Virus record (IMG/VR): IMGVR_UViG_3300031951_000604
Span: 1 to 35,529 of that record
DNA from: a virus
Direction: 5' to 3' (one strand)
Length of the DNA: 35,529 bases
Shown: positions 962-35,038 of the stretch, one piece after another
Numbering within the stretch: position 1 is the stretch's first letter
How the letters are laid out: the number at the start of each line of letters is the position of its first letter
Program-made: the position numbers and the translations under genes
Notes under the pieces: generated by a model
What the model was told of the DNA's origin: nothing
Seen by the model: only the letters and a program-made list of their open reading frames with translations
Database searches by the model: none

Positions 962-3900
962 TAAATTCCCGAACTCACTATCTTGAAATCCCCTGTTCCT
1001 TGGAATATTATTTCATAAACAATGGAAGTTCCCTGCATGCGATTGTCATTCCCAACAACCGTTTTTCTGCCTATGTACTGCTCCCATCCTGAACCATAAT
1101 CACGAAGATTGGCTTGTAATACACTCGTTTGAACACTGCCTGTTAAGTATTGTTGCAGGTTGTCATAGAAATTAACCCTTAAAGGAACTTGGTTTGAAAC
1201 TACCCTTACGCCCTGAAATTCTTTTGCAAGTATCTGATTCTTGGCACTTGACTGAATTACCCTTGCTTGAATTGGATTGTCGTTAATTTGGTCTCCCGTA
1301 TCTAAGACAAAAGTAACTGCCTCACCACCATCTGCCCATCTACCCATTCCGTAAGTCTGATTGTCAAAACTTAGATATTGGTCATATCTATGTGAGTAAG
1401 TTCCATTCCACGCTTTGTTTTTTCTACTGAAAATAAACAAGTTGTCTATTGGTTCTTCAGAAGCATTACCTGCCTGAATCTGAACCCAATACTCCCCATA
1501 CTTGACATCATAAAGACTTGTAAGCCAAGTTTCATATCCAAGTGTAGTTTGTTTTAGGAATGGATTGATTCTTGCAAAGTAAGAAAACTCCCTTGCAATA
1601 TCCGTAAGTTGGTTATCTTCAAGCAGATATGCACTTGTTCTATTGATAAAATACAAGGCATTATTGTACTCTGCCCTTGACCGCCAAGCCTCATCATTCA
1701 TTCCGATTTCCTTGCTTATCCAATACTGACCACTAATTACATTGTTTTCAGTAGTCAATCCCATGGCAATTTGCTCGGAGGTTGCATCACGAATAAGCAC
1801 ATCCTCTGTAATTAAAAGACAAACACCTCTATCGGTAACAGCATAAAGGTTATTCCCTTTATTACCACCCAAGGCACTCCAAGCATACTTTATCTCACCT
1901 GATTGGTCCTCAATGTCATAAATATTTGCCGGACTAAAAGTTCTTATGCCCGGGCTATCAACCCTTGCAATATCCCTTCTTTCGCTATATGCAACCCTTG
2001 AACAAAACTCAGTAAGTTCTCGGTATCCAGTAGTAGGTTTGGTTGTCCAAATAACCACATTTTGGAAGTGCATATAGTCAATATTGTACTGAGGTTGGTA
2101 TCTATAACCACCATATCTCCAATAAAGCCACTCGCTTGGGTAATCTGACTTGTATGTATCGTAAACAATACCTGAACCACCACAGAAGTTATCGTTTTCA
2201 ACATCTGTTTTCCACTCATTAGGACGCATAATGTAGTTTGTGGCAGGGAAGAATTTCCCCATTTGGTATTGTGGAGGGTCTAATTTAGCAACCTCGTGGA
2301 AGTATGCTACATGAACCCTGCTTTCTACATTGAAAAGTGCAATCATTTGACGCACCCAATCACTTTTTACCTTACTACAATCCTGAATTTTGTTTATTCC
2401 ACCCTTTGCATCCTGTGTAATAAACATTCTTGGGTTTATTTGAACCTCATAGTAAGGCAACCCAAGATTCATAGGAAGTGGAGAACTTGTGCCTGTATTG
2501 TTAGGATTGCCACCGCCATTAGGAACTTGTCTATCAACAAAGCAACCTACATCATCTCCTGTATAAGCATCTCCACCATAAGCACGAATAGGCACTTCAT
2601 TATCGTACTTAATGTAGATTTTGCTATCGGTTTGTGGGGTAATTGGAGTTGAACCTGCCGTAAACACAATTACAAAAGTCCTTGGAGAGGTAAATAAAAC
2701 TCTGTAAAAACCTGAAATAGTTACTCCATCTTTGCTACCACCAGGGGTATTTGTTCCTATGGTATAAGGTAAAGATGGAATCATTAAATCAATATTTGCA
2801 TTTGATACATTATCAGCATTCAACCAATATTGAATAGTGCCATTTGGCAACTCAATTTCAAGTATTGAGTTTATTGTGTTTGTATCAATGGATGCAAAAT
2901 TTGTATATGTATTAGCAATATATGGTCTTACATCTTCCCATCTTTCATCCCCTGCAAGTTGGAATGTAGTTGAACCTGCAGAATAAGTACCAATCCAAGA
3001 CCTTAGTTTTTGATATGCACCCGTATCATAGTATGTAGTAATATCACCTTGTGCTACATTCGCCAAGGTATCAACTATATTAATGTTATACCAAGGTTCG
3101 TGAAATGATTTTAAGTCACCACTATCATAAGCATTATCACAAGCATTTAAGCCAACGCTTTGAACACCATAAACATCTATGCTCGTACCAAGCACAAAAT
3201 ACTGATTCCCTCTATCACCTACATACTCAGCACCAACACCGCTTGTATTTGTAGCAGAGTTATTTGCGTTTCTAAACTCGTTAATAACAAAACTCGCTTT
3301 ATTTGTTGATAGAATCGTAGTCCATCCTGAACCCGGGAAACCTGCATTCCTCCACTTTCCAAACTGAATATATCCACCTGTGCTTGTTGGGTCAGGAGTA
3401 AGATTTATTGTAGCATTGTCCTCGTAGAATCTTGGATACAAACACATATCAATAATGTCTTTGCCTCCAAGAAAAGTTCTATTTTCTCCGTGTGGAATTT
3501 CAGAAAACAAACCAACAGGAGAAACTAATTGAGCCTCATATTGCCCACCTGCATTAGCACCTATTTGATTGATAATTGCCTGACTTATTAATCCTGCTCT
3601 TGAAGTACCCTCAAACCCATAAAACCACAATTTGTTTACAGCCTTATATGCAGGGTCGGTATCACCACCCGGATTCGGATAAAGATAGTAGCCACCTATT
3701 CCCTGAAATACAACTCTACCTGCAGGTCTTGTTCTAAGTACCGAAAATGCCTGAATGTTTGTTGGCAATAAACTTGTATCAATACCATTCAATGCCATTC
3801 CTAAGGCAAAGTATTCAGGTGCAAACCCAGCAGGATGATAATCACCAAGGTTAGTACAAGTATTCTCAACACGGGTATTTATTACATAGTCATGTCCTGA

Positions 3901-5589
3901 TACATTAGGGTCTGATTCGCCAATGGGAGTAAGAGGTTGATAACCTATATCACTTGCGTCATATGGTTCAGGTGCTATCCCACACCCACCACAATAACTT
4001 GGCATATTATTAAATCCAAGTGGAGCATCACATGAATCATCTTTATTACCTTCACACGATATATTCTTAAATGAACAGCAATCATCTTTTGTTATTGCAT
4101 TCCTAAGAGTATATGTTTCGTGGCAAGGTGCATCGCTATTTGTAGAATAAACAACAGCAGTAGGCAAAGTAGTAGCACCACTTGCGGTATAACTAAAAGT
4201 TCCTGTCAATGCACTTGCCTCATCCCTGCGTTCAGGCATTTGGTAATTGGTAAAGTTAGGAACTTTCGTAGCAAAAGTTTTGCCCATTAAGTTATTCCAA
4301 AATCCTACCGCAAAACCATACTTCTCCCCACGGAAATAACTCCTGTGATAGGTAGTATTGTAGGCATCATTGTAGCCAACCGTTCCCAATGGAGCCATAA
4401 CAGGAAACATATTGGGTCTTGGACTTGCAGGAGGATATGAAACAAACGAGGGTGTAAAGTCCATAGATTCATACTTGATATTCATCAAATACAATCTATT
4501 CTCAAAGTACCTTATCGTTTTTGCAGCCTTAATCGGGGCAAAAGTAGTTGTGTCCTCTGTATCCGTAATTGGCTCGCCAATCGCACCTATGTCAAGAATA
4601 TATCTTATTGAGTTCTCCCCATCAACTAATTGCAAAGTGCCTATTAATTCCGCACCAGGAGTAAAGCCAACAGGAACGCCTGTGTTGTAACTATACCTCT
4701 TAATCTCAATATAGTCAAAGTTCAAGTCATTTTGAGCCCTGAAATTCAGTACAATTCCATACTTGCTTTGAGTATTTGGAAATGCACCATAAGTCTTTAT
4801 GTATGGATACTGATTACTATCTGCATTGATATTTACAGGAATAGGTATCGTAGGCGTAACATTTGTCCAAGCCGTTCTATCTCCATCCTTGGTTACATAC
4901 CTGAATGAATAAGAATACATACCAACTTTTAACCCTCCTGCACCATAAACCGTTGCACCGGGATAACCAGGATTAGCAGTCAATTCAACAAAAGATAGTA
5001 TATGTGTAGGAATCTGTGTATTGATTTCGTATCTCCTCCTATCAAACTCATTGAAGTATTTTTCAGTACAATTAGGTACGGTACTATTATCAATCATATC
5101 CTGCACATTCAGGATAATTGGGGGAGTTCTATTGTCGGTAATATAAATCTCTCCACCTAAACAAGTATTATTCCAATGGAACTGAACAGGAAAGTCAATG
5201 TCCAAAGGTAGTTGTGGACTTGCTGCACAAATCTGCCCGTTAATTCTTATGAATGGAGCCTCGATTTGGTTCTCATCACACCACAATTCAACTATGTTGT
5301 CCTTAACATACATAGTGCCCAAGCATCTCCACTCTCCATTTGCAAAAGTACCACCATAATAATTTAAGCAACTATTATCCTCACTCACATAAATCTTGTC
5401 CTCCCCATCAATTCTCTGCAAAGCCATTTCATCCTCTTTCAATCCAGTAGGACGCATATTCTCTGCATCAATATAAGCACCACTATCACTTTGTCCAAGG
5501 AACTGCTCCTCTATGCTGTATTGAGCACCCTTGTTAAATGCCTTAACATCTAACTGTGTATTCTGTTGATTGTGTATTGGTAATGGCAT
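943..5589 (-). CDS. Very large tail protein, probable tail nozzle/stabilisation (beta-propeller-like)
   Basis: This 1548-residue protein is the longest in the window. It is rich in Tyr, Asn, Thr and aromatic beta-strand patterns. Its N-terminus describes a 'map of inputs' (QFLGQSDSGAYIDAENMRPTG), and near residues 1250-1330 are strings such as RGVCLLITEDVLI and EAWRSRAEYNNALYFINRTSAYLL, which resemble the repeat blades of crAss-like phage stabilisation/nozzle proteins and P22 gp10-type tail hubs. The last 150 residues look like a beta-rich cap. A Cys-rich insertion (seven or more Cys, nucleotides about 3980-4120) is unusual. It follows the ring/adaptor genes with a 3-nt gap, as expected for a tail component. 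Assignment is by resemblance and synteny, not by a catalytic motif. Confidence 0.8.
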   Translation of the reverse strand: MPLPIHNQQNTQLDVKAFNKGAQYSIEEQFLGQSDSGAYIDAENMRPTGLKEDEMALQRIDGEDKIYVSEDNSCLNYYGGTFANGEWRCLGTMYVKDNIVELWCDENQIEAPFIRINGQICAASPQLPLDIDFPVQFHWNNTCLGGEIYITDNRTPPIILNVQDMIDNSTVPNCTEKYFNEFDRRRYEINTQIPTHILSFVELTANPGYPGATVYGAGGLKVGMYSYSFRYVTKDGDRTAWTNVTPTIPIPVNINADSNQYPYIKTYGAFPNTQSKYGIVLNFRAQNDLNFDYIEIKRYSYNTGVPVGFTPGAELIGTLQLVDGENSIRYILDIGAIGEPITDTEDTTTFAPIKAAKTIRYFENRLYLMNIKYESMDFTPSFVSYPPASPRPNMFPVMAPLGTVGYNDAYNTTYHRSYFRGEKYGFAVGFWNNLMGKTFATKVPNFTNYQMPERRDEASALTGTFSYTASGATTLPTAVVYSTNSDAPCHETYTLRNAITKDDCCSFKNISCEGNKDDSCDAPLGFNNMPSYCGGCGIAPEPYDASDIGYQPLTPIGESDPNVSGHDYVINTRVENTCTNLGDYHPAGFAPEYFALGMALNGIDTSLLPTNIQAFSVLRTRPAGRVVFQGIGGYYLYPNPGGDTDPAYKAVNKLWFYGFEGTSRAGLISQAIINQIGANAGGQYEAQLVSPVGLFSEIPHGENRTFLGGKDIIDMCLYPRFYEDNATINLTPDPTSTGGYIQFGKWRNAGFPGSGWTTILSTNKASFVINEFRNANNSATNTSGVGAEYVGDRGNQYFVLGTSIDVYGVQSVGLNACDNAYDSGDLKSFHEPWYNINIVDTLANVAQGDITTYYDTGAYQKLRSWIGTYSAGSTTFQLAGDERWEDVRPYIANTYTNFASIDTNTINSILEIELPNGTIQYWLNADNVSNANIDLMIPSLPYTIGTNTPGGSKDGVTISGFYRVLFTSPRTFVIVFTAGSTPITPQTDSKIYIKYDNEVPIRAYGGDAYTGDDVGCFVDRQVPNGGGNPNNTGTSSPLPMNLGLPYYEVQINPRMFITQDAKGGINKIQDCSKVKSDWVRQMIALFNVESRVHVAYFHEVAKLDPPQYQMGKFFPATNYIMRPNEWKTDVENDNFCGGSGIVYDTYKSDYPSEWLYWRYGGYRYQPQYNIDYMHFQNVVIWTTKPTTGYRELTEFCSRVAYSERRDIARVDSPGIRTFSPANIYDIEDQSGEIKYAWSALGGNKGNNLYAVTDRGVCLLITEDVLIRDATSEQIAMGLTTENNVISGQYWISKEIGMNDEAWRSRAEYNNALYFINRTSAYLLEDNQLTDIAREFSYFARINPFLKQTTLGYETWLTSLYDVKYGEYWVQIQAGNASEEPIDNLFIFSRKNKAWNGTYSHRYDQYLSFDNQTYGMGRWADGGEAVTFVLDTGDQINDNPIQARVIQSSAKNQILAKEFQGVRVVSNQVPLRVNFYDNLQQYLTGSVQTSVLQANLRDYGSGWEQYIGRKTVVGNDNRMQGTSIVYEIIFQGTGDFKIVSSGIYWKPLV

Positions 5590-5592
5590 CTG

Positions 5593-6357
5593 TTAAAACT
5601 TTGCGGTTTCGTTCCTTAAATTAAACTCATTTCTCTTCCAAGTTCCCATTCTGACAAGAAATACCTTGGCTCTTGCTAAAGCACCATCTCTTGGCGAATC
5701 TAAGTCATTAGTGATTACTTGGTACAATACCCGATACTTCTTATCATCCCGAGCCATAAGTGCCATACAGACCCTCTTAGCGGTCATTAAAGTAATGCAC
5801 TCACGAACTACTCTTGGTATCTCTAACTTATCACCTATCTCTCCACCCATACTATTGTAAACCAACCTCAAATACTTGTACTCCAAACACGGACTACTAA
5901 GCATTATCAACCTATTTTCAATATTGGCAAAGTAAGTAGTATATCCAAGACCATTAATATCGCTTCCAAATCCATCAGCATTGAAGTAGTAATCCTGTGC
6001 CTGATTATCTTTCTTTGCAGCAGTATATCCTGGACCACCTTGGCTATTATTGTAAAGTCTTTTCCAATGAACTACTGCCATTTCTCCACCCGGCTGACAA
6101 CACACACCATTGTGCATATACATCTCACGGATATTGAAACTATCAGAAGGCATATCCAAAGTGAATCTACCTGGCTTAAGTTCAATGTCAATAGTCTTGA
6201 TAGTCATAAACGACTGCAAATTCAAGTCCTCAAAAGCCCTTTGAACACTATTCATATAGTACCCACGGCTTAAACCTCTACTCATATCAGCATCGTCAAG
6301 CATCATACTCACTTCAGATATAATATCGTCAGCGGTAATAACATCACTCCATTCCAT
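5593..6357 (-). CDS. Tail tubular/ring-like connector protein
   Basis: The 254-residue protein begins with a helical segment (DDIISEVSMMLDD...SRGYYMNSVQRAFEDLNLQSF) followed by a beta-rich body with DIELKPGRFTLDMPSDSFNIREMYMHNG. This pattern is that of T7 gp11-like tail tubular or crAss-like ring proteins, which attach beneath the portal. It ends with another helical region (RVVRECITLMTAKRVCMALMARDDKKYRVLYQ). It sits 3 nt from the adaptor-like gene upstream and 3 nt from the large tail gene downstream, clearly one operon. The family assignment is by fold pattern and order; a minor head-tail connector role is the main alternative. Confidence 0.75.
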   Translation of the reverse strand: MEWSDVITADDIISEVSMMLDDADMSRGLSRGYYMNSVQRAFEDLNLQSFMTIKTIDIELKPGRFTLDMPSDSFNIREMYMHNGVCCQPGGEMAVVHWKRLYNNSQGGPGYTAAKKDNQAQDYYFNADGFGSDINGLGYTTYFANIENRLIMLSSPCLEYKYLRLVYNSMGGEIGDKLEIPRVVRECITLMTAKRVCMALMARDDKKYRVLYQVITNDLDSPRDGALARAKVFLVRMGTWKRNEFNLRNETAKF

Positions 6358-6359
6358 AA

Positions 6360-7133
6360 TTAACTACCTCCCTGTAATTGTTGAGTAACCTGTTGTTGAT
6401 ACAACTGCTCTGCACGGCTTATTCCTCCCTCTGTTGTTGTATCCTGTCCATCATTAATATTATCATCAGCAGTAGATAAAACAAACTTACCAAGGCTTAT
6501 TACATTATATTTTAATACTTCAATTAAATGTTCAGGCAAGTCCACCACATCATCTAAGCTCTTTACATCGCTTGCAGTTGTATAGGAATAGCAACCAATC
6601 CTTAAAGTACTGATATTGCTACACTCCATACCCAATAAATATACCCTAACACCATTGCCATCCTCATCCTCTACCAAATAATAGTACGGATTAGCCTCAC
6701 TTGGCTTCTCATACGGATTGGCATACAGCCTTTGAATACCAAAACCAGGTGTAGTTCTCGTAAAATTTACCTGATTGGGACCATAACAGCAGTTTGGATC
6801 TAAATGATTGTAGGTAATAAACTTAATTCCACCATCTCTTGGTAGGTCAAGTATCCTTGCAGGAAGAATAATGTACTTATTCCCCTTAATTACATTGGGG
6901 TTGGTAGAAGAATTACTTACCTGAATAGGAATATTTGAGTAAATACGCAAATAATCTCCACCAATGGAGCCTTGTTCTTTGTATTCTTTGTCTAAGTGCT
7001 GAAATTTCAGCCTATTAGCACTAACGCTGACATGGTAAAGTACCTGTGCTATGGTAAGTTCCCCATCATCAAAGTTTTGTTTTAGGGATTGCCAAATATC
7101 ATAGACAACTTCCCTGTATGTATATCCAGCCAT
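6360..7133 (-). CDS. Head-tail adaptor/ring-like protein
   Basis: The 257-residue protein has an N-terminal helical region (YREVVYDIWQSLKQNFDDGELTIAQVLYHVSVSANRLKFQHLDKEYKE), a beta-rich middle with Asp/Pro/Tyr-containing strands, and a Gln-rich C-terminus. Size, neighbours and the helix-then-beta design fit adaptor or ring proteins of short-tailed Bacteroidetes phages. The start at 7133 is preceded only 4 nt upstream by a TAACTTTG -7 box, so a transcript from it would be leaderless or nearly so. It is the first gene after the terminator of the signal-peptide gene and begins the tail block. Exact role is inferred. Confidence 0.75.
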   Translation of the reverse strand: MAGYTYREVVYDIWQSLKQNFDDGELTIAQVLYHVSVSANRLKFQHLDKEYKEQGSIGGDYLRIYSNIPIQVSNSSTNPNVIKGNKYIILPARILDLPRDGGIKFITYNHLDPNCCYGPNQVNFTRTTPGFGIQRLYANPYEKPSEANPYYYLVEDEDGNGVRVYLLGMECSNISTLRIGCYSYTTASDVKSLDDVVDLPEHLIEVLKYNVISLGKFVLSTADDNINDGQDTTTEGGISRAEQLYQQQVTQQLQGGS

Positions 7134-7137
7134 ACCC

Positions 7138-7170
7138 CAAAGTTACGAAAATGTATAGAAAAAAGGACAA
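7138..7170 (-). promoter_or_regulatory. Bacteroidetes-type promoter for the tail block, near-leaderless
   Basis: TAACTTTG (7145-7138, minus strand) is a full -7 match. A TTG (7170-7168) lies 22 nt upstream, within the usual spacing range but weaker than TTTG. The box is 4 nt from the ATG at 7133 and abuts the upstream terminator. Confidence 0.5.
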
Positions 7171-7171
7171 T

Positions 7172-7203
7172 AAAAAAAACCCGAGGTCATCACTCTCGGG
7201 TTT
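7172..7203 (-). terminator. Rho-independent terminator after the signal-peptide gene
   Basis: Arms 7177-7185 and 7195-7203 (AAACCCGAG / CTCGGGTTT) form a 9-bp stem with a 9-nt loop. On the minus strand this is followed by eight T (7179-7172). It lies 29 nt past the stop of the 150-aa gene. Confidence 0.9.
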
Positions 7204-7231
7204 CTGTCAAATGACAACGCAAAAACTTATA

Positions 7232-7684
7232 TTAAAATGTTCTAAAACCGCCAACTGCCCTTTTAACACGGAATGCAGCAGTGTCAGTATCGTAGTAAAA
7301 ATAACCAACTATGGAAGTATCGCTTGAAATCAATTCAGCTTTTGTGTATGCTCCCAAATAATTGCTGTTTTCACCACTAATATCCTGATTGATTATATTA
7401 CGAGCCTGAACCCAAGTTCTTCCATTAATAGAATCACTTGAAGCACCATACGCCAAAGTCAGTTGCGTAGTACCATTGTTTGAAAAACGCAGGTAACGAA
7501 CAGAAGTGATTGTAACAGTGTCCACAGAAGTGCCAATAACAGCCAATGCTTTGACAACATTGTTAGACCGCCTTACAACAATATTCCCATTTGCAAAGGA
7601 ATAAGTCAGGTTTTGAGCCTTTACGCTTGGCTCACAAGCAACTGCAAAAAGCAGTACAGACAGAAAGAAGAAAAGTTTTTTCAT
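7232..7684 (-). CDS. Exported protein or lipoprotein with N-terminal signal, moron-like
   Basis: The 150-residue protein starts with a clear signal sequence (MKKLFFFLSVLLFAVAC), with a cysteine at residue 17 in a poor lipobox (AVAC) and an alternative signal peptidase I site near VKAQ. The mature part is a small Thr/Ser/Val-rich beta protein without cysteine. An exported protein is out of place among virion genes. It has its own -7 box upstream and its own strong terminator downstream, the layout of a phage moron: an independently expressed cargo gene, often acting on the host envelope or on superinfection. No homologue is recognised and the function is unknown. Confidence 0.8.
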   Translation of the reverse strand: MKKLFFFLSVLLFAVACEPSVKAQNLTYSFANGNIVVRRSNNVVKALAVIGTSVDTVTITSVRYLRFSNNGTTQLTLAYGASSDSINGRTWVQARNIINQDISGENSNYLGAYTKAELISSDTSIVGYFYYDTDTAAFRVKRAVGGFRTF

Positions 7685-7716
7685 TGTTTGAAATATAAAT
7701 TAAGTTGAACTGAATA

Positions 7717-7724
7717 CAAATATA
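7717..7724 (-). promoter_or_regulatory. -7 box (TATATTTG) before the signal-peptide gene
   Basis: TATATTTG on the minus strand matches TAnnTTTG and would give a leader of about 25-30 nt. I see no TTTG or TTG at 19-23 nt upstream, so this is a half-promoter at best. Confidence 0.35.
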
Positions 7725-7731
7725 CGGAGTT

Positions 7732-8121
7732 TTATTTACGCTTAGTTTTATTGGCTCTATACTCTGCCATAGCAATTTTTTTTTCAGAACCTTTTTTCCA
7801 AGAACCTGCTGCAAGTTTTTCGGCTTTTCGTCTTGAATTAACATTAATAAGTTCATTTCTTTGCTTGGCTTGTTGTGGCGTTTGTTCAATCCAATCCTTT
7901 GGACTTCTTGACATTTCCTTTCCAGGTTTTGGTGATATTGTTGGGAAGACTGCAAAATTGCCTCTTTTTTTAGAAGGGTCACCAACCCAACTCATTTTAT
8001 GAGATGCTTTTTGACCAGAATCAGTTATCATATACATTTCACTTCCTGATTTTGTCTTTCTCATATTGGCTATTGCTTTCTTTTTAGAGCCAAATGGATT
8101 GGTATTATTATTTTTTGCCAT
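7732..8121 (-). CDS. Small very basic protein (virion-associated candidate)
   Basis: The 129-residue protein is Lys/Arg-rich throughout (GSKKKAIANMRKTKSG..., ...SWKKGSEKKIAMAEYRANKTKRK). It has no Cys and no signal sequence. It is the last of four consecutive small basic genes between the adaptor and signal-peptide genes. Proteins of this kind may bind packaged DNA or act as minor capsid components, but no specific domain is recognised. The frame overlapping it at 7632-7985 has no sensible neighbours and was discarded. Confidence 0.7.
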   Translation of the reverse strand: MAKNNNTNPFGSKKKAIANMRKTKSGSEMYMITDSGQKASHKMSWVGDPSKKRGNFAVFPTISPKPGKEMSRSPKDWIEQTPQQAKQRNELINVNSRRKAEKLAAGSWKKGSEKKIAMAEYRANKTKRK

Positions 8122-8151
8122 AAAATGTTATTGATTATTGGTTAATTTCTA

Positions 8152-8439
8152 TCACCATTTGACCCTCGAACTCCAAAAGGCCGCACTCATTTTGCCCTTT
8201 GCAATATTCTTAGCGTGTCTTGCCTTGAAACTTTCACGCCTTTTTCTGTCTGCCGGACTTTCACCTTTTCTCTTAGGACTGCCACTTACCCCCTGCTGTC
8301 CAAAACGAATAGTCTTAGTCTTATCACCCTCCTTTGCCACAACTACATGGCTTTTGGTAGGATGGCTTGGAGTTCTTTTCGGCTTATTAAAACCGCTCAC
8401 CCCAACTCTTTTCAGAATTGCAGAATTATTTGATTTCAT
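8152..8439 (-). CDS. Small very basic protein (virion-associated candidate)
   Basis: The 95-residue protein is strongly basic, with SPKRKGESPADRKRRESFKARHAKNIAKGKMSAAFWSSRVKW in its second half. 'KMSAAFWSSRVKW' and the 'GSPKRKG' linker look like short DNA- or RNA-binding tails. Its ATG overlaps the stop of the 80-aa gene upstream as ATGA, so the two are translationally coupled. The opposite-strand frames at 8138-8494 and 8215-8433 are shadows. The function is unknown. Confidence 0.7.
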   Translation of the reverse strand: MKSNNSAILKRVGVSGFNKPKRTPSHPTKSHVVVAKEGDKTKTIRFGQQGVSGSPKRKGESPADRKRRESFKARHAKNIAKGKMSAAFWSSRVKW

Positions 8440-8678
8440 CGCTTTTTCCCTTTATGAAGTCCGTGACTTGCAAACTGCTTTCCCATTGCAGTAGCCTGTC
8501 TTTTTTTGGCATTGGCACTCGCTAACTTACTCCTGCCTGAAGCAGTAGATTTCAATTTGCTAATAGTGGCACTTGGAGCATAAACTTCCCCTGTTTCCTT
8601 AGATGGCTTTCCACTCGGAGTTCTCCACTCCTGCTTTGTCCACCTTGCTAAACTCTTTTGTGTCGCTTTCTTTGCCAT
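8436..8678 (-). CDS. Small very basic protein (virion-associated candidate)
   Basis: The 80-residue protein is rich in Lys, Ser and Ala (MAKKATQKSLARWTKQEW..., ...MGKQFASHGLHKGKKR). It starts 1 nt after the stop of the DUF5872-like gene and overlaps the next gene by the 4-nt ATGA. It has the same composition as its neighbours and may have arisen with them by duplication and divergence, but no clear sequence identity is seen. The function is unknown. Confidence 0.7.
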   Translation of the reverse strand: MAKKATQKSLARWTKQEWRTPSGKPSKETGEVYAPSATISKLKSTASGRSKLASANAKKRQATAMGKQFASHGLHKGKKR

Positions 8679-24263: not shown

Positions 24264-24268
24264 AAAAA

Positions 24269-24300
24269 CAAAAGTACAAACTAATATACAAAGTTACAAA
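24269..24300 (-). promoter_or_regulatory. Canonical Bacteroidetes promoter of the leftward early operon
   Basis: TTTG (24300-24297) and TACTTTTG (24276-24269) on the minus strand are exactly 20 nt apart. An overlapping TAACTTTG (24296-24289) without a good -33 may be a decoy. The expected start is near the GTG at 24263. The operator pair lies just upstream of the -33 box. Confidence 0.8.
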
Positions 24301-24305
24301 AAACA

Positions 24306-24353
24306 GGACAGAAAGTGTCAGAGTAACCCCCTTTTTCGGACAGAAAGTGTCCG
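24306..24353. promoter_or_regulatory. Pair of palindromic operators
   Basis: Two copies of GGACAGAAAGTGTC occur at 24306-24319 and 24338-24351, 32 bp apart (about three helical turns). The core is an inverted repeat GACA-N5-TGTC. The right copy extends to a perfect 6-bp arm palindrome CGGACA-GAAAG-TGTCCG (24337-24353). They sit 6 and 37 bp upstream of the -33 box of the leftward early promoter, the geometry of cooperative dimer binding. Confidence 0.75.
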
Positions 24354-24964
24354 ATTTTCGCAAGTTATGAAATTAAACACAAACATAAACAACTGAAAAC
24401 CACCAATTTAATTTTTCAAAATTCCAGCCTATATTAGTCTAGGGAAACACCAAACAAACAATTCCGCTGATCCTTTCTTTTACACCTACCCTACCCTCCC
24501 GCAAACCAGTCGCACCAATCTGTATTTACAACCAACTAACACGCCCAAACGCTACATTCACGAATATCACAACATCTCCAACTACACATTCGCTCATTCC
24601 GCTTTTTGGGCTGTAAACCACATAAACCAACAATACCCCAACCACAACTCAACATCAGCCCACAGCCAGCCGCTTTAAATTTCATTCCCCCATGAATTTC
24701 GGGCAGTTCGCATTACCAACCCACCCTACTACAAAACACAACACAATCCCCAACCCTCCAATGCTCCTACCCTCAATTGCAGGGGGAGATATATCAGGTT
24801 TTCTTTCTTAGGGCAATGTTTGATTGAAGTTTAACTACCATGCACTTACAACACAACCTTAATTGAAACGCAAACCAGAAATCCAATCAAAAACGATTTA
24901 CATATTCTGTTGTGTGTGAAAAGTAAATTCAGCATAAATATCGAAACACTGAAAATTGATTAGC

Positions 24965-25038
24965 ATGAAAAGTTGGGGATAGCACACATTAAGACTAATT
25001 ACTAAATATCAAATTTTACCTCGAATGAAAAGTTGGGG
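24965..25038. repeat. 14-bp direct repeat, 60-bp period
   Basis: ATGAAAAGTTGGGG occurs at 24965-24978 and 25025-25038, exactly 60 bp apart, with different flanks. Both copies lie in the A/T-rich part directly before the GC island. Confidence 0.7.
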
Positions 25039-25213
25039 TATGATTATATGCGAGCACCCCCGCCGGCCTGCGGTCCGAAAATCCGAAATGCGCAATTCCG
25101 ATGAAGGGGGGGGTCCCATTCCGTACGGATGCCTTCACCATTTGTCCATGAGATTAACACTTATACAAATGTTGTTAATACCTTTATACATTCAGTTCGC
25201 ACCTGTTCCGGCT

Positions 25214-25443
25214 TATCCCTTTGTTATTCAGTTAGTTACAACATGAAATATAATTTACTTAACATAATAATAGTTATATGTAACGGAAAAAGATAAATGT
25301 AATTAATCCCTTTGCCCTTTGTCCGGATTGCATTCACTGAATGATCCCTTTATTTTTGGTTGATCTATTCCGGAATGTGTGTCCCTTTGTTGGAATTCCA
25401 TTCAGGAAATTACCCCCCTTTACTCATCCCTTCATTCCCTTTG
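25214..25443 (+). repeat. TCCCTTTG repeat cluster
   Basis: TCCCTTTG occurs at about 25216, 25307, 25382 and 25436, with variants GCCCTTTG (25314), TCCCTTTA (25345) and TCCCTTCA (25427), all in the same orientation. Related words recur in short spacers of the operon, for example before the 26265 gene and in the 5' flank of the first tRNA-like element. They could be iterons, operators or part of the transcript. Confidence 0.55.
25328..25358 (+). promoter_or_regulatory. Rightward promoter of the plus-strand operon
   Basis: TTG (25328-25330) and TATTTTTG (25351-25358) are exactly 20 nt apart on the plus strand. The first gene starts 370 nt downstream, so the transcript would have a long leader. 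A second TATTTTTG-like box near 25560 has a poor -33 element. Confidence 0.5.
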
Positions 25444-25732
25444 CTTTGTTTGTTTATTCAAACCTTCCCCAGATAAATTTTTTTAAGTTTAATTTAGTGT
25501 AGGAATCATTCCTTTAATTGTGTTTTTTCCTTGTGTCCTTGCTTTATATTGTGTCTTATTTTTGTATCCGCTTTTATTCTTTTTTTTTCTTATAGGTAAA
25601 TTTTTTTGTGTTGGTTTTCAGGTAGTTATAATTTATTCGTAAAATTAAATTAAATATTGCTTGTAAAATCTAATTACTCGTTGTTGATTTGTGCATTCAA
25701 TGTAATTAATCATTCACTTAAACATTTCAGTC

Positions 25733-25930: not shown

Positions 25931-25954
25931 TATTCACCATTTAATCCTTAACCT

Positions 25955-26251
25955 ATGCAAACAATCAAAGCAAGACAACAAGAAATTAGAAGGGAATTCA
26001 GGTCCATTGGATTATCTGTTAGTTTCAAAGTCTATCCGTATTCAATCACCTTCAAAAACCTTAAATTATTAGGCGTTTGCGAAATGAATAATAATACTGA
26101 TTTTGAGGTATTCGATAAAAAATCGGGCGACTTTACGGGCCTCATTATTAAGGTTCCTCAGGATTTAGGTGATAAGTTAATAGGCCTCATTGACGATATC
26201 GAGAACGGCCTTTATGGAGATGTCCAAAACAGTTATATAAATTCACTTTAA
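25955..26251 (+). CDS. Hypothetical 98-aa protein
   Basis: The 98-residue protein has a basic N-terminus (MQTIKARQQEIRREFRSIGLSVSFKVYPYSITFKNLKLLG) and an acidic C-terminal helix (DLGDKLIGLIDDIENGLYGDVQ). The leader ATTCACCATTTAATCC resembles those of neighbouring genes. The mixture of alpha and beta suggests a small globular protein. No family is recognised. Confidence 0.6.
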   Translation: MQTIKARQQEIRREFRSIGLSVSFKVYPYSITFKNLKLLGVCEMNNNTDFEVFDKKSGDFTGLIIKVPQDLGDKLIGLIDDIENGLYGDVQNSYINSL

Positions 26252-26264
26252 TCCCTTTGTCCCT

Positions 26265-26372
26265 ATGAAAAAAGTTAAAAATTACACAAAGCATATATAT
26301 ATAGCTTTGTTACTCTCAGTGTCCTATTTCGCCGTTCACATAATTACGGCCCTTTTCAAATCAATCTTTTAA
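26265..26372 (+). CDS. 35-aa single-pass membrane peptide
   Basis: ATG 26265 opens a 35-codon frame with a basic N-terminus (MKKVKNYTKH) and one hydrophobic segment (IYIALLLSVSYFAVHIITALF). It lies 13 nt after the previous gene, with ATCCCTTTG in the spacer. A membrane microprotein is the best reading; its role is unknown. Confidence 0.5.
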   Translation: MKKVKNYTKHIYIALLLSVSYFAVHIITALFKSIF

Positions 26373-26403
26373 TTTTCGTTTCACCCTTAAACCTTCAAAC
26401 CAC

Positions 26404-26544
26404 ATGACAATTCAAAAGTATTTCAAAACACTTAAACAGGTTGAACGATTTCAAAGTAAATTATACAACCAGTATAATTCCGTAAAATTGGTATTTTTCC
26501 CAATTTATTCAGAAGATGGAATTTATACTTTTTTTGTTAATTAA
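26404..26544 (+). CDS. 46-aa hypothetical protein
   Basis: ATG 26404 opens a 46-codon frame (MTIQKYFKTLKQVERFQSKL...), basic in the first half and aromatic at the end (VFFPIYSEDGIYTFFVN). A leader rich in CTTAAACC precedes it, like other genes of the operon, and the spacing to neighbours is regular. The function is unknown. Confidence 0.5.
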   Translation: MTIQKYFKTLKQVERFQSKLYNQYNSVKLVFFPIYSEDGIYTFFVN

Positions 26545-26571
26545 TCAATTCACCATTTTACACTTAAAACC

Positions 26572-26775
26572 ATGTACAAAACACAAAAACAAGTTCGCAC
26601 GGCCTTTTGGCAATTCCTGAAGGAATCAAATCCTGAGTTATTCAAGTTCGCAAAAGTGAGTAAAAGACAGAATGAGCAAATTACAGACATTCGAGTAACT
26701 TTTACTGATTGGATGGACCATTTATTCAAGTCCGGACAAATAACAGAAAAACAGGTAAATAATTACACACTGTAA
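26572..26775 (+). CDS. 67-aa hypothetical basic protein
   Basis: The 67-residue protein (MYKTQKQVRTAFWQFLKESNPELFKFAKVSKRQNEQITDIRVTFTDWMDHLFKSGQITEKQVNNYTL) is helical with conserved-looking aromatic positions. The leader ends in CTTAAAACC before the ATG. Small proteins of this style are common in Bacteroidetes phages; I do not recognise the family. Confidence 0.6.
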   Translation: MYKTQKQVRTAFWQFLKESNPELFKFAKVSKRQNEQITDIRVTFTDWMDHLFKSGQITEKQVNNYTL

Positions 26776-26829
26776 AAAATCAAACGGGGGGTGTCGCATC
26801 CGGTACGCACAAAAAAAACCTTAAAAACT

Positions 26830-27123
26830 ATGTTTTCAAATTTTCACCGTAACATCATGGGCACAATTTCATTTGATATGAAGGCCCCAAACATGAGAAA
26901 AGCTCAGGAGTTCATTGTGTATCCTATGCACGAAAAAAGCAATAAAATCCTGATTCAGTCAGATAAAAGATGGGCTGAAATTTGCGTAAATTCCGGAGCC
27001 GTTGAAATGACAAACGGAACTGGGGGACATCCTAACAGTTGGTTATTAACTATCCAAAAAATGAGGGGACAAGCTCAAACTTTCAAACTTTCCGAAATTG
27101 ATTTACAGGCCCTGAAAATGTAA
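26830..27123 (+). CDS. 97-aa hypothetical protein
   Basis: From ATG 26830 the protein has 97 residues (MFSNFHRNIMGTISFDMKAPNMRKAQEFIVYPM...). This start is preceded by the operon's A-rich leader, CCTTAAAAACT directly before the ATG, whereas the upstream GTG at 26791 lies in a G-rich spacer without it. The body is mixed alpha/beta with no Cys except one at CVNSG. The function is unknown. A 105-nt gap follows, the longest within this part of the operon. Confidence 0.6.
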   Translation: MFSNFHRNIMGTISFDMKAPNMRKAQEFIVYPMHEKSNKILIQSDKRWAEICVNSGAVEMTNGTGGHPNSWLLTIQKMRGQAQTFKLSEIDLQALKM

Positions 27124-27228
27124 ATTTTCACCACAGCAGGCAAAAGTGTAGGGAATGCCGTAATTAGCACGGATAATTCAGGAGCATTTGAAATTCTGTA
27201 AAAATTAACTCTTAAAACTTAAAAACCA

Positions 27229-27540
27229 ATGAAAAAAATTTTATTAAATCCATTTTCTCATGCACTCGGCAAAAATCCACTCATGGAAACATCCGGTAAA
27301 ATTGTATTCACAGACGGTGAATATAAAATTTACAGGCATTTTGACCGTCACTTTGTCCATACCTTCAAAAATATTGTAATAACCGAAAGGACAGGACCTA
27401 ATAAGGACCTTATTAACGGATTGAAAAACAATATCAAACCAACAGGTGAAGCGTCAATTTATCATGACTTTGAGCGTCCCCAATGGGCCATAAATGAAGG
27501 CTTAAAAATCGCTAAGGAAATAAATTTTACCATTCAATAA
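27229..27540 (+). CDS. 103-aa hypothetical protein
   Basis: The 103-residue protein (MKKILLNPFSHALGKNPLMETSGKIVFTDGEYKIYRHFDRHFVHTFKNIVITERTG...) has several His and Phe in its first half and a helical end (LKNNIKPTGEASIYHDFERPQWAINEGLKIAKEINF). The leader CTTAAAACTTAAAAACCA before the ATG is the clearest example of the operon's leader motif. The preceding 105-nt gap contains three small hairpins. No family is recognised. Confidence 0.65.
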   Translation: MKKILLNPFSHALGKNPLMETSGKIVFTDGEYKIYRHFDRHFVHTFKNIVITERTGPNKDLINGLKNNIKPTGEASIYHDFERPQWAINEGLKIAKEINFTIQ

Positions 27541-27565
27541 TTCAAACCTTCAAAACTTAAAAACC

Positions 27566-27778
27566 ATGCAAACCAAAAAACACATCAGCATTACCCAAAC
27601 TGGACACGGACATTACCGAGTCACTATGTTAATTTACGGGAAACCGTTTAGTACAATTACCACGGATTCAATTTCCGTAGATGAGTATAGGGACCACGAA
27701 AATCCCCGAAGGTCAAACAGGGGATACAAGGCCCTTTACAATTACCTTATGAAAGCCTACCGGAATAAATCTAAATAA
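27566..27778 (+). CDS. 70-aa basic hypothetical protein
   Basis: The 70-residue protein (MQTKKHISITQTGHGHYRVTMLIYGKPFSTITTDSISVDEYRDHENPRR...) begins with a beta hairpin-like region with His and Tyr and ends with a basic tail (YNYLMKAYRNKSK). The leader CTTCAAAACTTAAAAACC matches the operon motif. It ends 8 nt before the first tRNA-like element. No family is recognised. Confidence 0.6.
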   Translation: MQTKKHISITQTGHGHYRVTMLIYGKPFSTITTDSISVDEYRDHENPRRSNRGYKALYNYLMKAYRNKSK

Positions 27779-27786
27779 TTCCTTTG

Positions 27787-27837
27787 TCCTGCTCCCGTGG
27801 TTGGGATATTATTCGGGTTCGATCCCTGAAGCAGGAG
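27787..27837 (+). ncRNA. Mini tRNA-like element 1 (acceptor, D-like and T arms, no anticodon arm)
   Basis: The 51-nt segment can fold as a shortened tRNA. A perfect 7-bp acceptor pairs TCCTGCT (27787-27793) with AGCAGGA (27830-27836). CCC-GTGGTT-GGG (27794-27805) forms a D-like hairpin with GG in its loop, and a 7-nt linker follows. The T arm (27813-27829) has 5 bp (TCGGG/CCTGA, one U-G) and the classic loop TTCGATC. Discriminator G27837 is followed by CTAA instead of CCA. The anticodon arm is missing. Such folds are substrates of RNase P and RNase Z. The next start codon, that of the RadC-like gene, lies exactly 22 nt after the discriminator. Confidence 0.75.
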
Positions 27838-27859
27838 CTAACCTTAAAACTTAAAAATT

Positions 27860-28342
27860 ATGCAAGTCAAACACATTAAAAAAGAAATGGAAACCGTTTC
27901 AAAGGTTGCTGATGTTAGGGCCGTTTATTCGGTCAAAGTTCCGGCAAAAGATAGGATTCAGATAAAAAGTCCTGATGCCGTTTACAACATATTAAGACCG
28001 TTTTACATGGATTCCGGGTTTATGGAGCAAAAAGAAATTTTTTCCTGCTTGTACTTAGACCGCTCAAACAAAATTTTAGGCACGGCCAAAATTTCGGAAG
28101 GCAGTTCGTGTGCTACCATTGTGGATATTCCGTATATATTCAGGTTGGCAATACTTATGAATGCAAGTTCTGTAATACTTTGCCACAATCACCCTTCAGG
28201 AAATTTGAATGCTTCAGAACCTGATAAACAAATAACCAAAAAAATAATTCAGGCAGGTGGTTTATTCGATATTCAAATTTTTGACCATTTGATAATAAGT
28301 TCGGACGGGTTCCTCAGTATGCAAAGCGAAGGCCTAATTTAG
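27860..28342 (+). CDS. RadC-like (JAMM/MPN) domain protein
   Basis: The 160-residue protein has the RadC core: KEIFSCLYLDRSNKILG with Glu59, then ILCHNHPSGNLNASEPD with His109, His111, Ser113 and Asp122, the metal-ligand pattern of the MPN/JAMM fold (H-x-H-x7-S-x2-D type). The C-terminal DHLIISSDGFLSM completes the family. It lacks the N-terminal helix-hairpin-helix region of chromosomal RadC, as phage and mobile-element versions often do. The biochemical role is unclear in the family; DNA processing or anti-restriction is often suggested. Its stop codon overlaps the 5' strand of the hammerhead. Confidence 0.9.
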   Translation: MQVKHIKKEMETVSKVADVRAVYSVKVPAKDRIQIKSPDAVYNILRPFYMDSGFMEQKEIFSCLYLDRSNKILGTAKISEGSSCATIVDIPYIFRLAILMNASSVILCHNHPSGNLNASEPDKQITKKIIQAGGLFDIQIFDHLIISSDGFLSMQSEGLI

Positions 28343-28393
28343 TTCACTGATGATTCCGTAAGGATGAAACACGGGTAAAACCGTGTATGAACT
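28341..28393 (+). ncRNA. Hammerhead ribozyme candidate
   Basis: All invariant core bases are present. Stem I is AGTTCA (28341-28346) with TGAACT (28388-28393). CTGATGA follows (28347-28353). Stem II is TTCC-GTAA-GGAT (28354-28365), with a GNRA loop and a U-U pair at its base. GAA is 28366-28368, and stem III is ACACGG-GTAAAA-CCGTGT (28369-28386). The cleavage triplet is GTA, and scission is expected after A28387. Stem I is the open one, which makes it type I. The U-U at position 10.1-11.1 is the only weak point. Cleavage would leave 21 nt before the ATG at 28409 and would separate the radC-like mRNA from the next gene. Confidence 0.8.
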
Positions 28394-28408
28394 TAAAATA
28401 AAAACATT

Positions 28409-28603
28409 ATGCAAAACAATGTAATTCAAACCTTCAAACACAAAAACCGGATAATTTGCTACATAATCCGGAATCAATCTGGAACCTATGAAACGAGGAC
28501 CGGAAAGCCCTCAGATGCTACCTGTATAGGTTGGAAATATGAAACCTTTGAGGATGCACAATTCACGGCAAAAGAATATTTCAGTAATTACCTTAACCAA
28601 TAA
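28409..28603 (+). CDS. 64-aa hypothetical protein behind the hammerhead
   Basis: The 64-residue protein (MQNNVIQTFKHKNRIICYIIRNQSGTYETRTGKPSDATCIGWKYETFEDAQ...) is a small alpha/beta protein with two Cys. Its leader begins exactly at the predicted ribozyme cleavage site. The ParB-like gene follows 5 nt after its stop and could be translated from the same processed mRNA. No family is recognised. Confidence 0.65.
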   Translation: MQNNVIQTFKHKNRIICYIIRNQSGTYETRTGKPSDATCIGWKYETFEDAQFTAKEYFSNYLNQ

Positions 28604-28608
28604 GCACC

Positions 28609-29403
28609 ATGCAAGTAAAACAATTCAATTTTTCGGATTTAATATCCGATGAGAAAATTAATTCCCGTACGGATTACGGGGATATTTCTAACCTTGCGGA
28701 TAATATCCGTATAAACGGGCTAATTAAGCCCTTAGAAGGCTTTGAAGGTCCTGAAGGCACATTCCACATTCGTGACGGATTCCGACGATTCCGTGCCTTG
28801 CAGGAACTAAGTTTACAAGGCTTTGAATTTCCGGTCCCTTGTTTAGTCAAACCTGAAACGGAATTTTCAGAAGCGGATTCCCTTTACCTTCAGATTAACG
28901 GAAATTCGGGAAAAAGTCTTACCTCTTTGGAACTATCGGAAGTTTTTCAGTCCCTCGAACTTGCAGGAGAAACCATTCCCGAAATTTGCAAGCGTTGTAC
29001 CTATTCGGAACAGTATGTAAGGGATATTTTGTCCCTGAGTTATGCTCCTGGCGAAATAAAAACCGAAATAGAAACGGGGAAAGTAAGTGCATCTGTTGTT
29101 ATTCAGGCCATGAAGGGGACAGACAATCCGGACGAACTTAGACAAATTATCGAAAGTTCAAAAGATTCAGAAACGGGGAAAGTAATTCCGTCAAAAGTAA
29201 AAACACAGATTCAGGACAAACGGGAAAGTAATTCAGGAAACCCGACAAAATCACCAGCAAAGGGATTAGAACAAGCGGAAAAAGTTTTGATAGAACTACA
29301 CGCTCAAACCGGAATTGATTCCATATTGCTTATATGGGAAGCCATACAGGGGAATATTCCTGTTAGTTCCATAGTCCTGAATGTTAAACAAGAAATTCAG
29401 TAA
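28609..29403 (+). CDS. ParB-like nuclease-domain protein
   Basis: The 264-residue protein has a ParB N-terminal domain: LADNIRINGLIKPLEGF (box I, residues 29-45) and HIRDGFRRFRALQEL (box II, residues 53-67, the CTP/nucleotide-binding arginine motif). A central helix-turn-helix-like part follows (SLTSLELSEVFQSLELAGETIPEICKRCTYSEQYVRDILSLSYAPGEI), then a basic, helical C-terminus. ParB-like phage proteins take part in partitioning, recombination or transcription control. It lies 5 nt after the small gene and 28 nt before dnaN. Whether it is a CTP switch, a nuclease or a regulator cannot be told from sequence. Confidence 0.85.
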   Translation: MQVKQFNFSDLISDEKINSRTDYGDISNLADNIRINGLIKPLEGFEGPEGTFHIRDGFRRFRALQELSLQGFEFPVPCLVKPETEFSEADSLYLQINGNSGKSLTSLELSEVFQSLELAGETIPEICKRCTYSEQYVRDILSLSYAPGEIKTEIETGKVSASVVIQAMKGTDNPDELRQIIESSKDSETGKVIPSKVKTQIQDKRESNSGNPTKSPAKGLEQAEKVLIELHAQTGIDSILLIWEAIQGNIPVSSIVLNVKQEIQ

Positions 29404-30518: not shown

Positions 30519-30568
30519 TCCGGGATTACATTTGGGTATTCAGGTAGGTTCGATTCCTGCTTCCGGAA
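30519..30568 (+). ncRNA. Mini tRNA-like element 2
   Basis: The 50-nt segment has the same design as element 1. A 7-bp acceptor pairs TCCGGGA (30519-30525) with TTCCGGA (30561-30567), one G-U. A D-like hairpin TAC-ATTTGG-GTA lies at 30527-30538, followed by a 5-nt linker. The T arm (30544-30560) is GTAGG-TTCGATT-CCTGC. Discriminator A30568 is followed by CTAA. Compared with element 1 the paired bases differ while pairing is kept (CCC/GGG versus TAC/GTA; acceptors differ), which is compensatory change. The next start codon (30590) lies 21 nt after the discriminator. It lies 11 nt after the dnaN stop. Confidence 0.75.
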
Positions 30569-33496: not shown

Positions 33497-33745
33497 TTAC
33501 TTTGTTACAAACTCATTCGCCTCAGCCATTGCCTGAATTATATCGGCAAGGGCGTTGATGTATTCCGATACATTCTCCATGTAAAACACCTCGCCATTCT
33601 CCTTTTGCGTAAATGCAAACTCATTCTTGGCTAAATTGTACCAGAGATAGTACATCGGGTTATTCTGATTCGATATTGACACGCCACAATTAATCGACCT
33701 GTTGTCGTCAATGCGGATGCCACTGGATAGGGTTTTAGTTGTCAT
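33497..33745 (-). CDS. 82-aa hypothetical protein
   Basis: The 82-residue protein (MTTKTLSSGIRIDDNRSINCGVSISNQNNPMYYLWYNLAKNEFAF...) is beta-rich at the start and ends in an acidic helix (VSEYINALADIIQAMAEANEFVTK). Its ATG overlaps the stop of the radical SAM gene by TAATG, so translation is coupled. It has one Cys and no membrane segment. No family is recognised. Confidence 0.65.
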   Translation of the reverse strand: MTTKTLSSGIRIDDNRSINCGVSISNQNNPMYYLWYNLAKNEFAFTQKENGEVFYMENVSEYINALADIIQAMAEANEFVTK

Positions 33746-34740
33746 TAAAATAGGGTTAATGTTGATTTTTTGATTTTTCGTTTAAAATATTGGTCTTTTG
33801 TTTCTTTCTGGAATGTTTCAAATGGCGTAACTCGATAACCACCTCTAATCACCCACTCCTGAAATTGATTTAATTCTTTTGAAGCAGTCCACTTTTCAAA
33901 TATCATTGGATATGGAAGTAAGCCAATTTCAGCCATAACATTAAATCTATCCCAAACATCCTGAGTCAATCCCTTTTGCCAATAGTTGCATAAAAAGTAA
34001 ACCATTATTTCATTCGGTTTTATTCCAGCGTTTAATATAGAATTAATCCCCTTTAAAAAAATTGATTCATCTCGTTTGTTGTCCCAAGCGGTGTAAATTC
34101 TTCTTCTTTTAAAACTATCATCACGAAATTTCATTCTTGATAAATACGATGCACCTTCATCATTAATTAACCTAATATTTATCCCCTGATTAAAACAAAC
34201 TTTGTAATTCCCATCAATTATTTCTTCTGCTTTTTCTTGCCAATTAGGTTGTCCAAAAAAATCATTATCAAGTAAATGTATTTGTTTTTTAGTGTTTCTT
34301 GGATTCTGCTTCCAAATATCGTAGATAGTATTGCTATCCACATTCTTACCTTCTTTTTTCGGCACTACACAAAAACTACAACGCAACCTGCATCCTCTTT
34401 GTGAAAATCCAATGGAAGCGTTAAATTTAGGGTAAATATCGTAATCGTAATACTCGTATTCAGATAGGTTAATTATCCTTTCAACGGTTGTATTGTTGTC
34501 ATTTGTACCAGTTCCGCCTACTATTGCAGTTGGAAAGTTTGTTTTAAACTGATTTATTTTTTTGTCAGATGTACTGAATATTGCACTACCATAAATAATA
34601 TCGTAATCAGGCTCAAACAATCCTTTGGATATTGACCTTTCAAAATAGACACTATGCCCATGCGACTTGTGCCAATGAGATAATTTCATTAAAGCCAAAT
34701 TTGGGAACTTACCATCAATTTGAGTTAGTCTAATTTTCAC
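33745..34740 (-). CDS. Radical SAM protein with B12-binding-like N-terminal region
   Basis: From GTG 34740 the protein has 331 residues. Cys117-x3-Cys121-x2-Cys124 (GCRLRCSFC) is the radical SAM 4Fe-4S motif. The N-terminal part (VKIRLTQIDGKFPNLALMKLSHWHKSHGHSVYF, PDYDIIYGSAIFS) resembles the Rossmann-like cobalamin-binding region of 'B12-binding radical SAM' enzymes, without an obvious DxHxxG motif. The GTG is preferred over the upstream ATG at 34833 because AAGGAGG lies 7 nt before it and the longer form would overlap the preceding gene by over 100 bp. The substrate is unknown; peptide, tRNA or nucleotide modification are options. Confidence 0.85.
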   Translation of the reverse strand: MKIRLTQIDGKFPNLALMKLSHWHKSHGHSVYFERSISKGLFEPDYDIIYGSAIFSTSDKKINQFKTNFPTAIVGGTGTNDNNTTVERIINLSEYEYYDYDIYPKFNASIGFSQRGCRLRCSFCVVPKKEGKNVDSNTIYDIWKQNPRNTKKQIHLLDNDFFGQPNWQEKAEEIIDGNYKVCFNQGINIRLINDEGASYLSRMKFRDDSFKRRRIYTAWDNKRDESIFLKGINSILNAGIKPNEIMVYFLCNYWQKGLTQDVWDRFNVMAEIGLLPYPMIFEKWTASKELNQFQEWVIRGGYRVTPFETFQKETKDQYFKRKIKKSTLTLF

Positions 34741-35038
34741 CCCCGTGCCTCCTTGCGTGATTAAGTTTAAACTCCCTGATATGCTCGCAGTATATTTCGC
34801 ATATGCCCGATTCCTGAGCGGTAATGACATCAATCAAAATATCCTTCTCCCGCATGGAATAGTTCAGCATTGCCCGACTTTCAATGTAGCCAGAACGCCA
34901 ATACATCTCCATTTCGCTTGAATTGTCTCGGCTGATACTTGTACTTATCCAAGCAACAGATAATGCGATACAAAGCACGGCAAGGGTGTATGTGGCTATC
35001 TTGTAGCCGAATCGGTAAGTGTATGGGTTAGTTCTCAT
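34730..35038 (-). CDS. 102-aa single-pass membrane protein
   Basis: From ATG 35038, preceded by AGGAGG at 6 nt, the protein has 102 residues with one membrane segment (KIATYTLAVLCIALSVAWISTSI) after a basic, Tyr-rich N-terminus (MRTNPYTYRFGY), and a soluble C-terminal helical part with two Cys (CEIYCEHIREFKLNHARRHG). The frame open to 35077 would add 13 residues without a ribosome site. It overlaps the radical SAM start by 11 nt. The function is unknown. Confidence 0.7.
   Translation of the reverse strand: MRTNPYTYRFGYKIATYTLAVLCIALSVAWISTSISRDNSSEMEMYWRSGYIESRAMLNYSMREKDILIDVITAQESGICEIYCEHIREFKLNHARRHGGEN

Follow-up and report, generated by a model that had tools for sequence, protein, structure and literature searches.

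The stretch of viral DNA analysed here (the window; 35,529 nt, IMG/VR record IMGVR_UViG_3300031951_000604) carries at positions 28341-28393 of its plus strand a complete 53-nt motif that, judged from its sequence, is a natural type I hammerhead ribozyme and a new instance of a kind known from phages. It is intercistronic and lies on the coding strand of its neighbours, between the stop codon of a radC-like gene (28340-28342) and the ATG of a 64-aa ORF at 28409, and its best explanation is, in our judgement quite probably, that of a cis-cleaving element that punctuates the message between these two genes. Read 5′ to 3′, the RNA is AGUUCA-CUGAUGA-UUCC(GUAA)GGAU-GAA-ACACGG(GUAAAA)CCGUGU-A-UGAACU and holds all conserved positions in type I order. 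Its parts and the adjoining genes are as follows.

28341-28346, plus strand: 5′ strand of stem I (AGUUCA), read from the sequence; overlaps the radC stop codon TAG
28347-28353, plus strand: catalytic core CUGAUGA, read from the sequence
28354-28365, plus strand: stem-loop II (UUCC-GUAA-GGAU), three pairs and a U·U at 10.1-11.1, from the sequence and a census of phage hammerheads
28366-28368, plus strand: core GAA (G12 A13 A14), read from the sequence
28369-28386, plus strand: stem-loop III (ACACGG-GUAAAA-CCGUGU) with A15.1-U16.1, from sequence and fold
28387, plus strand: A17 of the GUA triplet, after which, by homology, cleavage is predicted (28387/28388)
28388-28393, plus strand: 3′ strand of stem I (UGAACU), read from the sequence; the would-be 5′ end of the downstream product
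27860-28342, plus strand: upstream gene, RadC-like JAB-domain protein of 160 aa (Pfam PF04002, E = 1.5e-35; phrog_10276)
28409-28603, plus strand: downstream gene, 64-aa ORF with no family, starting 21 nt past the predicted cut; kept behind the hammerhead in two related phages (L074 and L075)
28609-29403, plus strand: next gene, ParB-like protein of 264 aa (phrog_1033, E = 3.4e-34)

The core elements CUGANGA, GAA, A15.1-U16.1 and H17 are all present (28347-28353, 28366-28369 and 28386-28387), and both the fold and a covariance model described below place three helices around them, with both strand ends in stem I. Stem I has six pairs, stem II three over the U·U, and stem III six; in isolation, the 53 nt fold into exactly these three stems (−15.2 kcal/mol, z = −2.8). 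An earlier note on this DNA had claimed all core bases and three stems within 53 nt, a GUAA loop, a U·U at the base of stem II, a GUA triplet and an overlap of the 5′ strand with the upstream stop codon; sequence reading and the isolated fold bear these points out, the overlap amounting to two bases of the TAG at 28340-28342. Its assignment to type I, the intercistronic position and the phage origin are likewise supported.

Since our strict descriptor (full core, 6/6 pairs in stem I, 6/6 in stem III, at least 3/4 in stem II; one match in 466 Mb of Markov-1 sequence of window composition, or 7.6e-5 per window) had been set after the motif was seen, an independent covariance model, R1, was built from 12 aligned hammerheads of other, unrelated phages, found by pattern. 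With all filters off, R1 returned 28339-28395 at 34.2 bits (E = 2.9e-6) as the sole significant match in the window, the second-best scoring 10.6 bits. Twenty permuted cores gave no match in 1.8 Mb of real phage DNA, as against 29 for the true core. A collection scan with a skeleton pattern (stem I, the core, GAAA, UNUGAA) retrieved 49 stretches; true hammerheads formed 9-10 of ten stem pairs, the window type nine, and chance matches nearly all 3-7, with three at eight. That the motif is a mere chance match, a simple hairpin or a terminator is therefore strongly disfavoured, and we regard it as next to negligible: stem III by itself is indeed a stable hairpin, but the per-window expectation, the E-value of the independent model and the recurrence of the element in relatives speak against such a reading, and a U run is absent after stem III.

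Rfam scans of the window, at gathering thresholds and, on two stretches, in E-value mode, returned nothing significant and no family at threshold, the best scores being 16.4 and 15.1 bits. RAGATH-1-hammerhead (RF03152) and Hammerhead_1 (RF00163) resemble the window motif in their type I stem order; it nevertheless scored only 15.1 bits (E = 3.1) with the former, whose gathering threshold is 56.3, and was not among the listed matches of the latter. At gathering, however, Rfam listed none of the hammerheads in nine control loci that carry them, so that its silence does not count against the window hammerhead. Even the strongest copy of the richest locus described below (L263) reached 31.5 bits with Hammerhead_1 (threshold 34) and 42 bits with RAGATH-1 (threshold 56.3). 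The covariance-model search that the earlier note had suggested as a check thus came out positive with R1, while Rfam's own models stayed below threshold without being discriminating. Given that the type was invisible at Rfam thresholds in the loci tested, the frequency of such hammerheads in phages is probably underestimated.

Applied to 86 sources, R1 gave 109 matches, or 100 distinct ones once copies were removed. These phage hammerheads come in series on one strand. In L263 (IMGVR_UViG_3300030382_001968), 14 R1 matches, 12 of them at 49 bits or more, fall within 6.3 kb (2290-8609) and alternate with small genes; a stop codon lies 0-3 nt before most copies, and a Shine-Dalgarno sequence with start codon (AAGGAGG-ATG) directly after most. 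Seven hammerheads lie between genes on one strand in L132 (6750-12069), as do seven in L227 (6224-11141, minus strand) and five in L273 (511-3439), and the record of L261 has four. As side observations, the stretch 2290-8609 of L263 is the most striking ribozyme-punctuated operon among the loci examined, and L162 (2177-3169) and L166 (1480-3322, minus strand) also belong to the group of contigs with three to seven one-strand intergenic hammerheads. As regards a possible contact of stem I with loop II, the phage set has a conserved G-C followed by A·A where stem I ends and a U/A-rich loop II, and the window departs from this with a U·U after stem I and a GUAA loop.

The position of these elements relative to genes is tightly set. 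Counting open frames of at least 40 codons in loci that had been found by hammerhead patterns (a biased sample, all from uncultivated phages), the upstream stop ends at −5 to +12 nt, relative to the beginning of the motif, in 68 of 96 distinct phage hammerheads, versus a mean of 7% and a maximum of 15% in a shifted-position control. In the favoured registers, the stop falls where stem I begins, where it ends (a UAA, +8) or within the core (the UGA of CUGA, +12), and an ATG opening at least 40 codons follows mostly 11-20 nt downstream of the motif. The intercistronic placement that the earlier note had called uncommon is thus the usual one for this type, and a 2011 paper already reported it for prophages (PMC3088659). 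One exact hammerhead pattern yields mostly real hammerheads in viral contigs and only five model matches in 81 other loci (80 bacterial or archaeal genomes and one cultivated phage), on which grounds we take this hammerhead type to be mainly a phage element. Three of the five matches from genome assemblies sit on Flavobacteriales MAG contigs, which are possibly phage:

L329, 2640-2697: hammerhead on a Flavobacteriales MAG contig
L362, 5422-5478, minus strand: hammerhead on a Flavobacteriales MAG contig
L356, 3761-3816, minus strand: hammerhead on a Flavobacteriales MAG contig

A pelagiphage 74% identical to a piece of L263 had no hammerhead in its first 9 kb.

Compensatory changes indicate that it is the RNA that is maintained. 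Across the 14 L263 copies, two-sided changes occur at 11 of 15 pairs, and across 101 distinct sequences at 13 of 15; 97.5% and 98.9% of the cells, respectively, are paired, figures that are inflated, the alignments having been fitted to the model, and are outweighed by a control gauging this effect, in which sliding the partner (by 1-3 columns in L263) left 28-51% and 27-45% paired. As the helices of the L263 copies are kept by compensatory changes while little DNA is shared outside the core and stem I, the structure of the phage hammerheads is, on this comparative evidence, selected as RNA.

Neither blastn of the 27.9-29.4 kb block nor tblastn of the portal protein found an annotated phage relative, and a terminase search gave only a distant one; a Bacteroidota host is plausible. 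Elsewhere in the window, 33745-34833 (minus strand) encodes a radical SAM-like protein, whose match to Pfam PF04055 (E = 3e-5) stays below the family cut-off. Close relatives of the window (L073, L074 and L075) were found by a search with the ParB-like protein. A stretch that is 97% conserved in L073 includes 24264-25700, some 1.4 kb that separate the leftward structural operon from the rightward early one, have no clear genes and contain repeats such as GGACAGAAAGTGTC and also ATGAAAAGTTGGGG; these 1.4 kb are perhaps an origin or promoter region.

In L074 and L075, the identical 53 nt precede the same 64-aa ORF, but another gene (MRTIEKT...) replaces radC. The constant unit across the three phages is thus the hammerhead with its downstream ORF, and the earlier note's description of the ribozyme as lying behind a radC-like gene is true of the window but incidental to the element. 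Six records of RadC relatives in IMG/VR likewise gave no hammerhead by the model, which argues that the ribozyme is not part of radC. The whole block of radC, hammerhead and ORF is absent from L073, which has a different, canonical hammerhead at 5296-5355 (GGCC/GGCC, stem II closed by G-C, GUC triplet) before the homologue of window ORF 27229-27540; the window itself lacks a hammerhead there. A further canonical copy (stem II closed by G-C, GUC) occupies another junction in L075 (4607-4673). While the 53 nt are invariant in the three phages, the 215 nt that follow carry 14 and 10 differences; an unchanged motif beside a diverged flank is a weak sign of constraint.

Other junctions in this family hold a second kind of small element, an armless tRNA-like structure:

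27787-27836, plus strand: armless tRNA-like element before radC, found by descriptor with altered-loop controls; left border of the exchanged radC cassette
30519-30567, plus strand: second armless tRNA-like element, found by descriptor
L073, 5929 and 8029; L074, 5135 and 8086; L075, 5136 and 8029: tRNA-like elements in relatives
L076, 5184; L147, 6125 (minus strand); L158, 460; L261, 1921; L293, 4009 (minus strand): tRNA-like elements at other loci

Each of the two in the window combines an acceptor of 7 bp with a canonical T arm (TTCRANY) and carries a D-loop-like GG in its linker of 17-19 nt; both sit between genes, 8-11 nt after a stop codon. One acceptor pair of the 30519-30567 element is A-T in L073, G-C in L074 and G·T in the window. 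A strict descriptor matched ten times in 3.7 Mb (about seven lineages), against 0-3 for eight altered loops, and most matches lie at gene junctions, unrelated phages included. ARAGORN and Rfam found no tRNA at the window's elements. They may be processing sites for RNase P or Z, which we offer as a lead.

The exchange that replaced radC in L074 is bordered on the right 7 nt short of the hammerhead and on the left at most 20 nt from the tRNA-like element at 27787-27836. More broadly, comparing window positions 25950-28610 with L073, L074 and L075, close relatives are seen to have exchanged small early-operon genes singly, the borders coinciding with gene ends and often adjoining a hammerhead or tRNA-like element. 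The swap in L074 between two such borders would fit an element that matters as DNA, a conserved recombination boundary for gene cassettes whose ribozyme activity is incidental. We hold this to be improbable: outside the core and stem I, hammerhead copies of one contig have little DNA in common although their helices persist, as described above, and phage modules would in any case be expected to have exchange borders where genes end.

The window copy has possible weak points. Its U·U at 10.1-11.1 is the only one among 100 phage hammerheads, of which 91 have G-C there and two A·A. Perreault et al. rejected candidates mismatched at this pair unless activity was shown (PMC3088659); the window would fall to this auxiliary criterion, a filter that lies outside the conserved core. 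The U·U may slow cleavage. The GUA triplet occurs in 12 of 99 phage hammerheads and is acceptable. When the fold is computed with longer native flanks, the optimum disrupts stems I and II and is more stable than the hammerhead fold by 4.7-6.0 kcal/mol, although such energies leave tertiary contacts and translation out of account. As several canonical relatives likewise lose stem I or II in long-context folds (two L263 rows were left out of the constrained-fold comparison), this is a caution rather than a refutation.

These features raise the alternative of a decayed hammerhead, formerly active, which lost the pair adjoining its core and now cuts too slowly to matter. Besides the unique U·U and the competing fold, its score of 34 bits, compared with 39.7 and 48.2 for the canonical sisters in L073 and L075, points in this direction. 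However, the core is complete at all 13 positions, stems I and III are whole, stem II keeps its three other pairs, the motif has zero substitutions in three phages despite 5-7% divergence of the flank, and the two phage hammerheads with A·A at the same pair score 73-77 bits with R1. We consider decay a minority reading and expect the window hammerhead, with reasonable confidence from its sequence, to cleave at a useful rate.

Cleavage by hammerheads takes place 3′ of H17 and produces a cyclic phosphate and a 5′-OH. On the polycistronic transcript of the rightward operon, the window hammerhead would fold once the ribosome leaves the radC stop codon and cut its own strand between A28387 and U28388. 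The hammerhead body (stems II and III, with a 2′,3′-cyclic phosphate) would thereby form the end of the upstream messages, and the downstream message would start with a 5′-OH and a 21-nt leader before the ATG at 28409, so that the radC message would be split from that beginning with the 64-aa ORF. With the stop codon in or beside the ribozyme, we infer that cutting would follow translation, a terminating ribosome first hiding and then releasing the ribozyme. Neighbouring genes could in this way differ in message stability, and gene exchange at the cut points would be harmless.

Alternatively, cleavage might serve mainly to destabilize or down-regulate the upstream or downstream message, or be controlled by a ligand or salt, rather than mature the messages. 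The unusual ends of the cleavage products are compatible with this, as is the salt response proposed for a halovirus hammerhead (PMC3088659), but the upstream stop and downstream start (in L263 with a Shine-Dalgarno sequence) leave both messages translatable, and no added conserved domain was seen that could act as a sensor. We consider this unlikely, somewhat more so than decay, and retain message punctuation as the preferred reading.

The role of hammerheads in bacteria and phages was an open question in a 2017 review (PMC6155905). Perreault et al. reported in 2011 that hammerhead clusters flank single genes or short blocks in prophage transcripts; they showed cleavage of three clusters in vitro and of one in E. 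coli, and proposed that transcripts are processed to messages the length of operons or genes (PMC3088659). The elements described here likewise bound genes in phage transcripts; they differ from these clusters (PMC3088659) in that stem II of the window copy is closed by U·U, the family occurs in uncultivated phages, up to 14 model matches stand at successive junctions in a tight register of stop, motif and ATG, and the window has a tRNA-like element at neighbouring junctions. In an early operon of haloviruses HF1 and HF2, the HHphage hammerhead lies 13 nt before a start codon, and an RNA 5′ end has been mapped near the cut site (PMC3088659). This element belongs, however, to an archaeal virus and is described as a hammerhead variant, whereas the window motif has the consensus core. 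The open-licence literature yielded no report of a fixed register of stop, ribozyme and start, of operons with at least a dozen hammerheads, or of a mixture with tRNA-like elements at exchange borders; one may exist elsewhere. In mitochondrial tRNA punctuation, the cuts that free single messages are made by RNase P and RNase Z at real tRNAs. The likeness lies in small structured RNAs between the genes of a long transcript; the difference is that in phages the part is played by a ribozyme, perhaps joined by armless tRNA-like elements.

With up to 14 junction hammerheads in one contig, a long transcript could be split into single-gene messages, and the fixed stop/start register, the compensatory changes and the number of matches per contig make the idea of transcript processing testable. 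It is possible, if for now doubtful, that some phages have an RNA punctuation system with a hammerhead at nearly every early-operon junction in a fixed register of stop, ribozyme and start, and that armless tRNA-like elements are an interchangeable second punctuation in the window's family. If so, the terminating ribosome would cover and then free each ribozyme, yielding one-gene messages as translation proceeds, the tRNA-like elements at 27787-27836 and 30519-30567 would probably be cut by host RNase P or Z, and gene cassettes would be swappable between punctuation elements.
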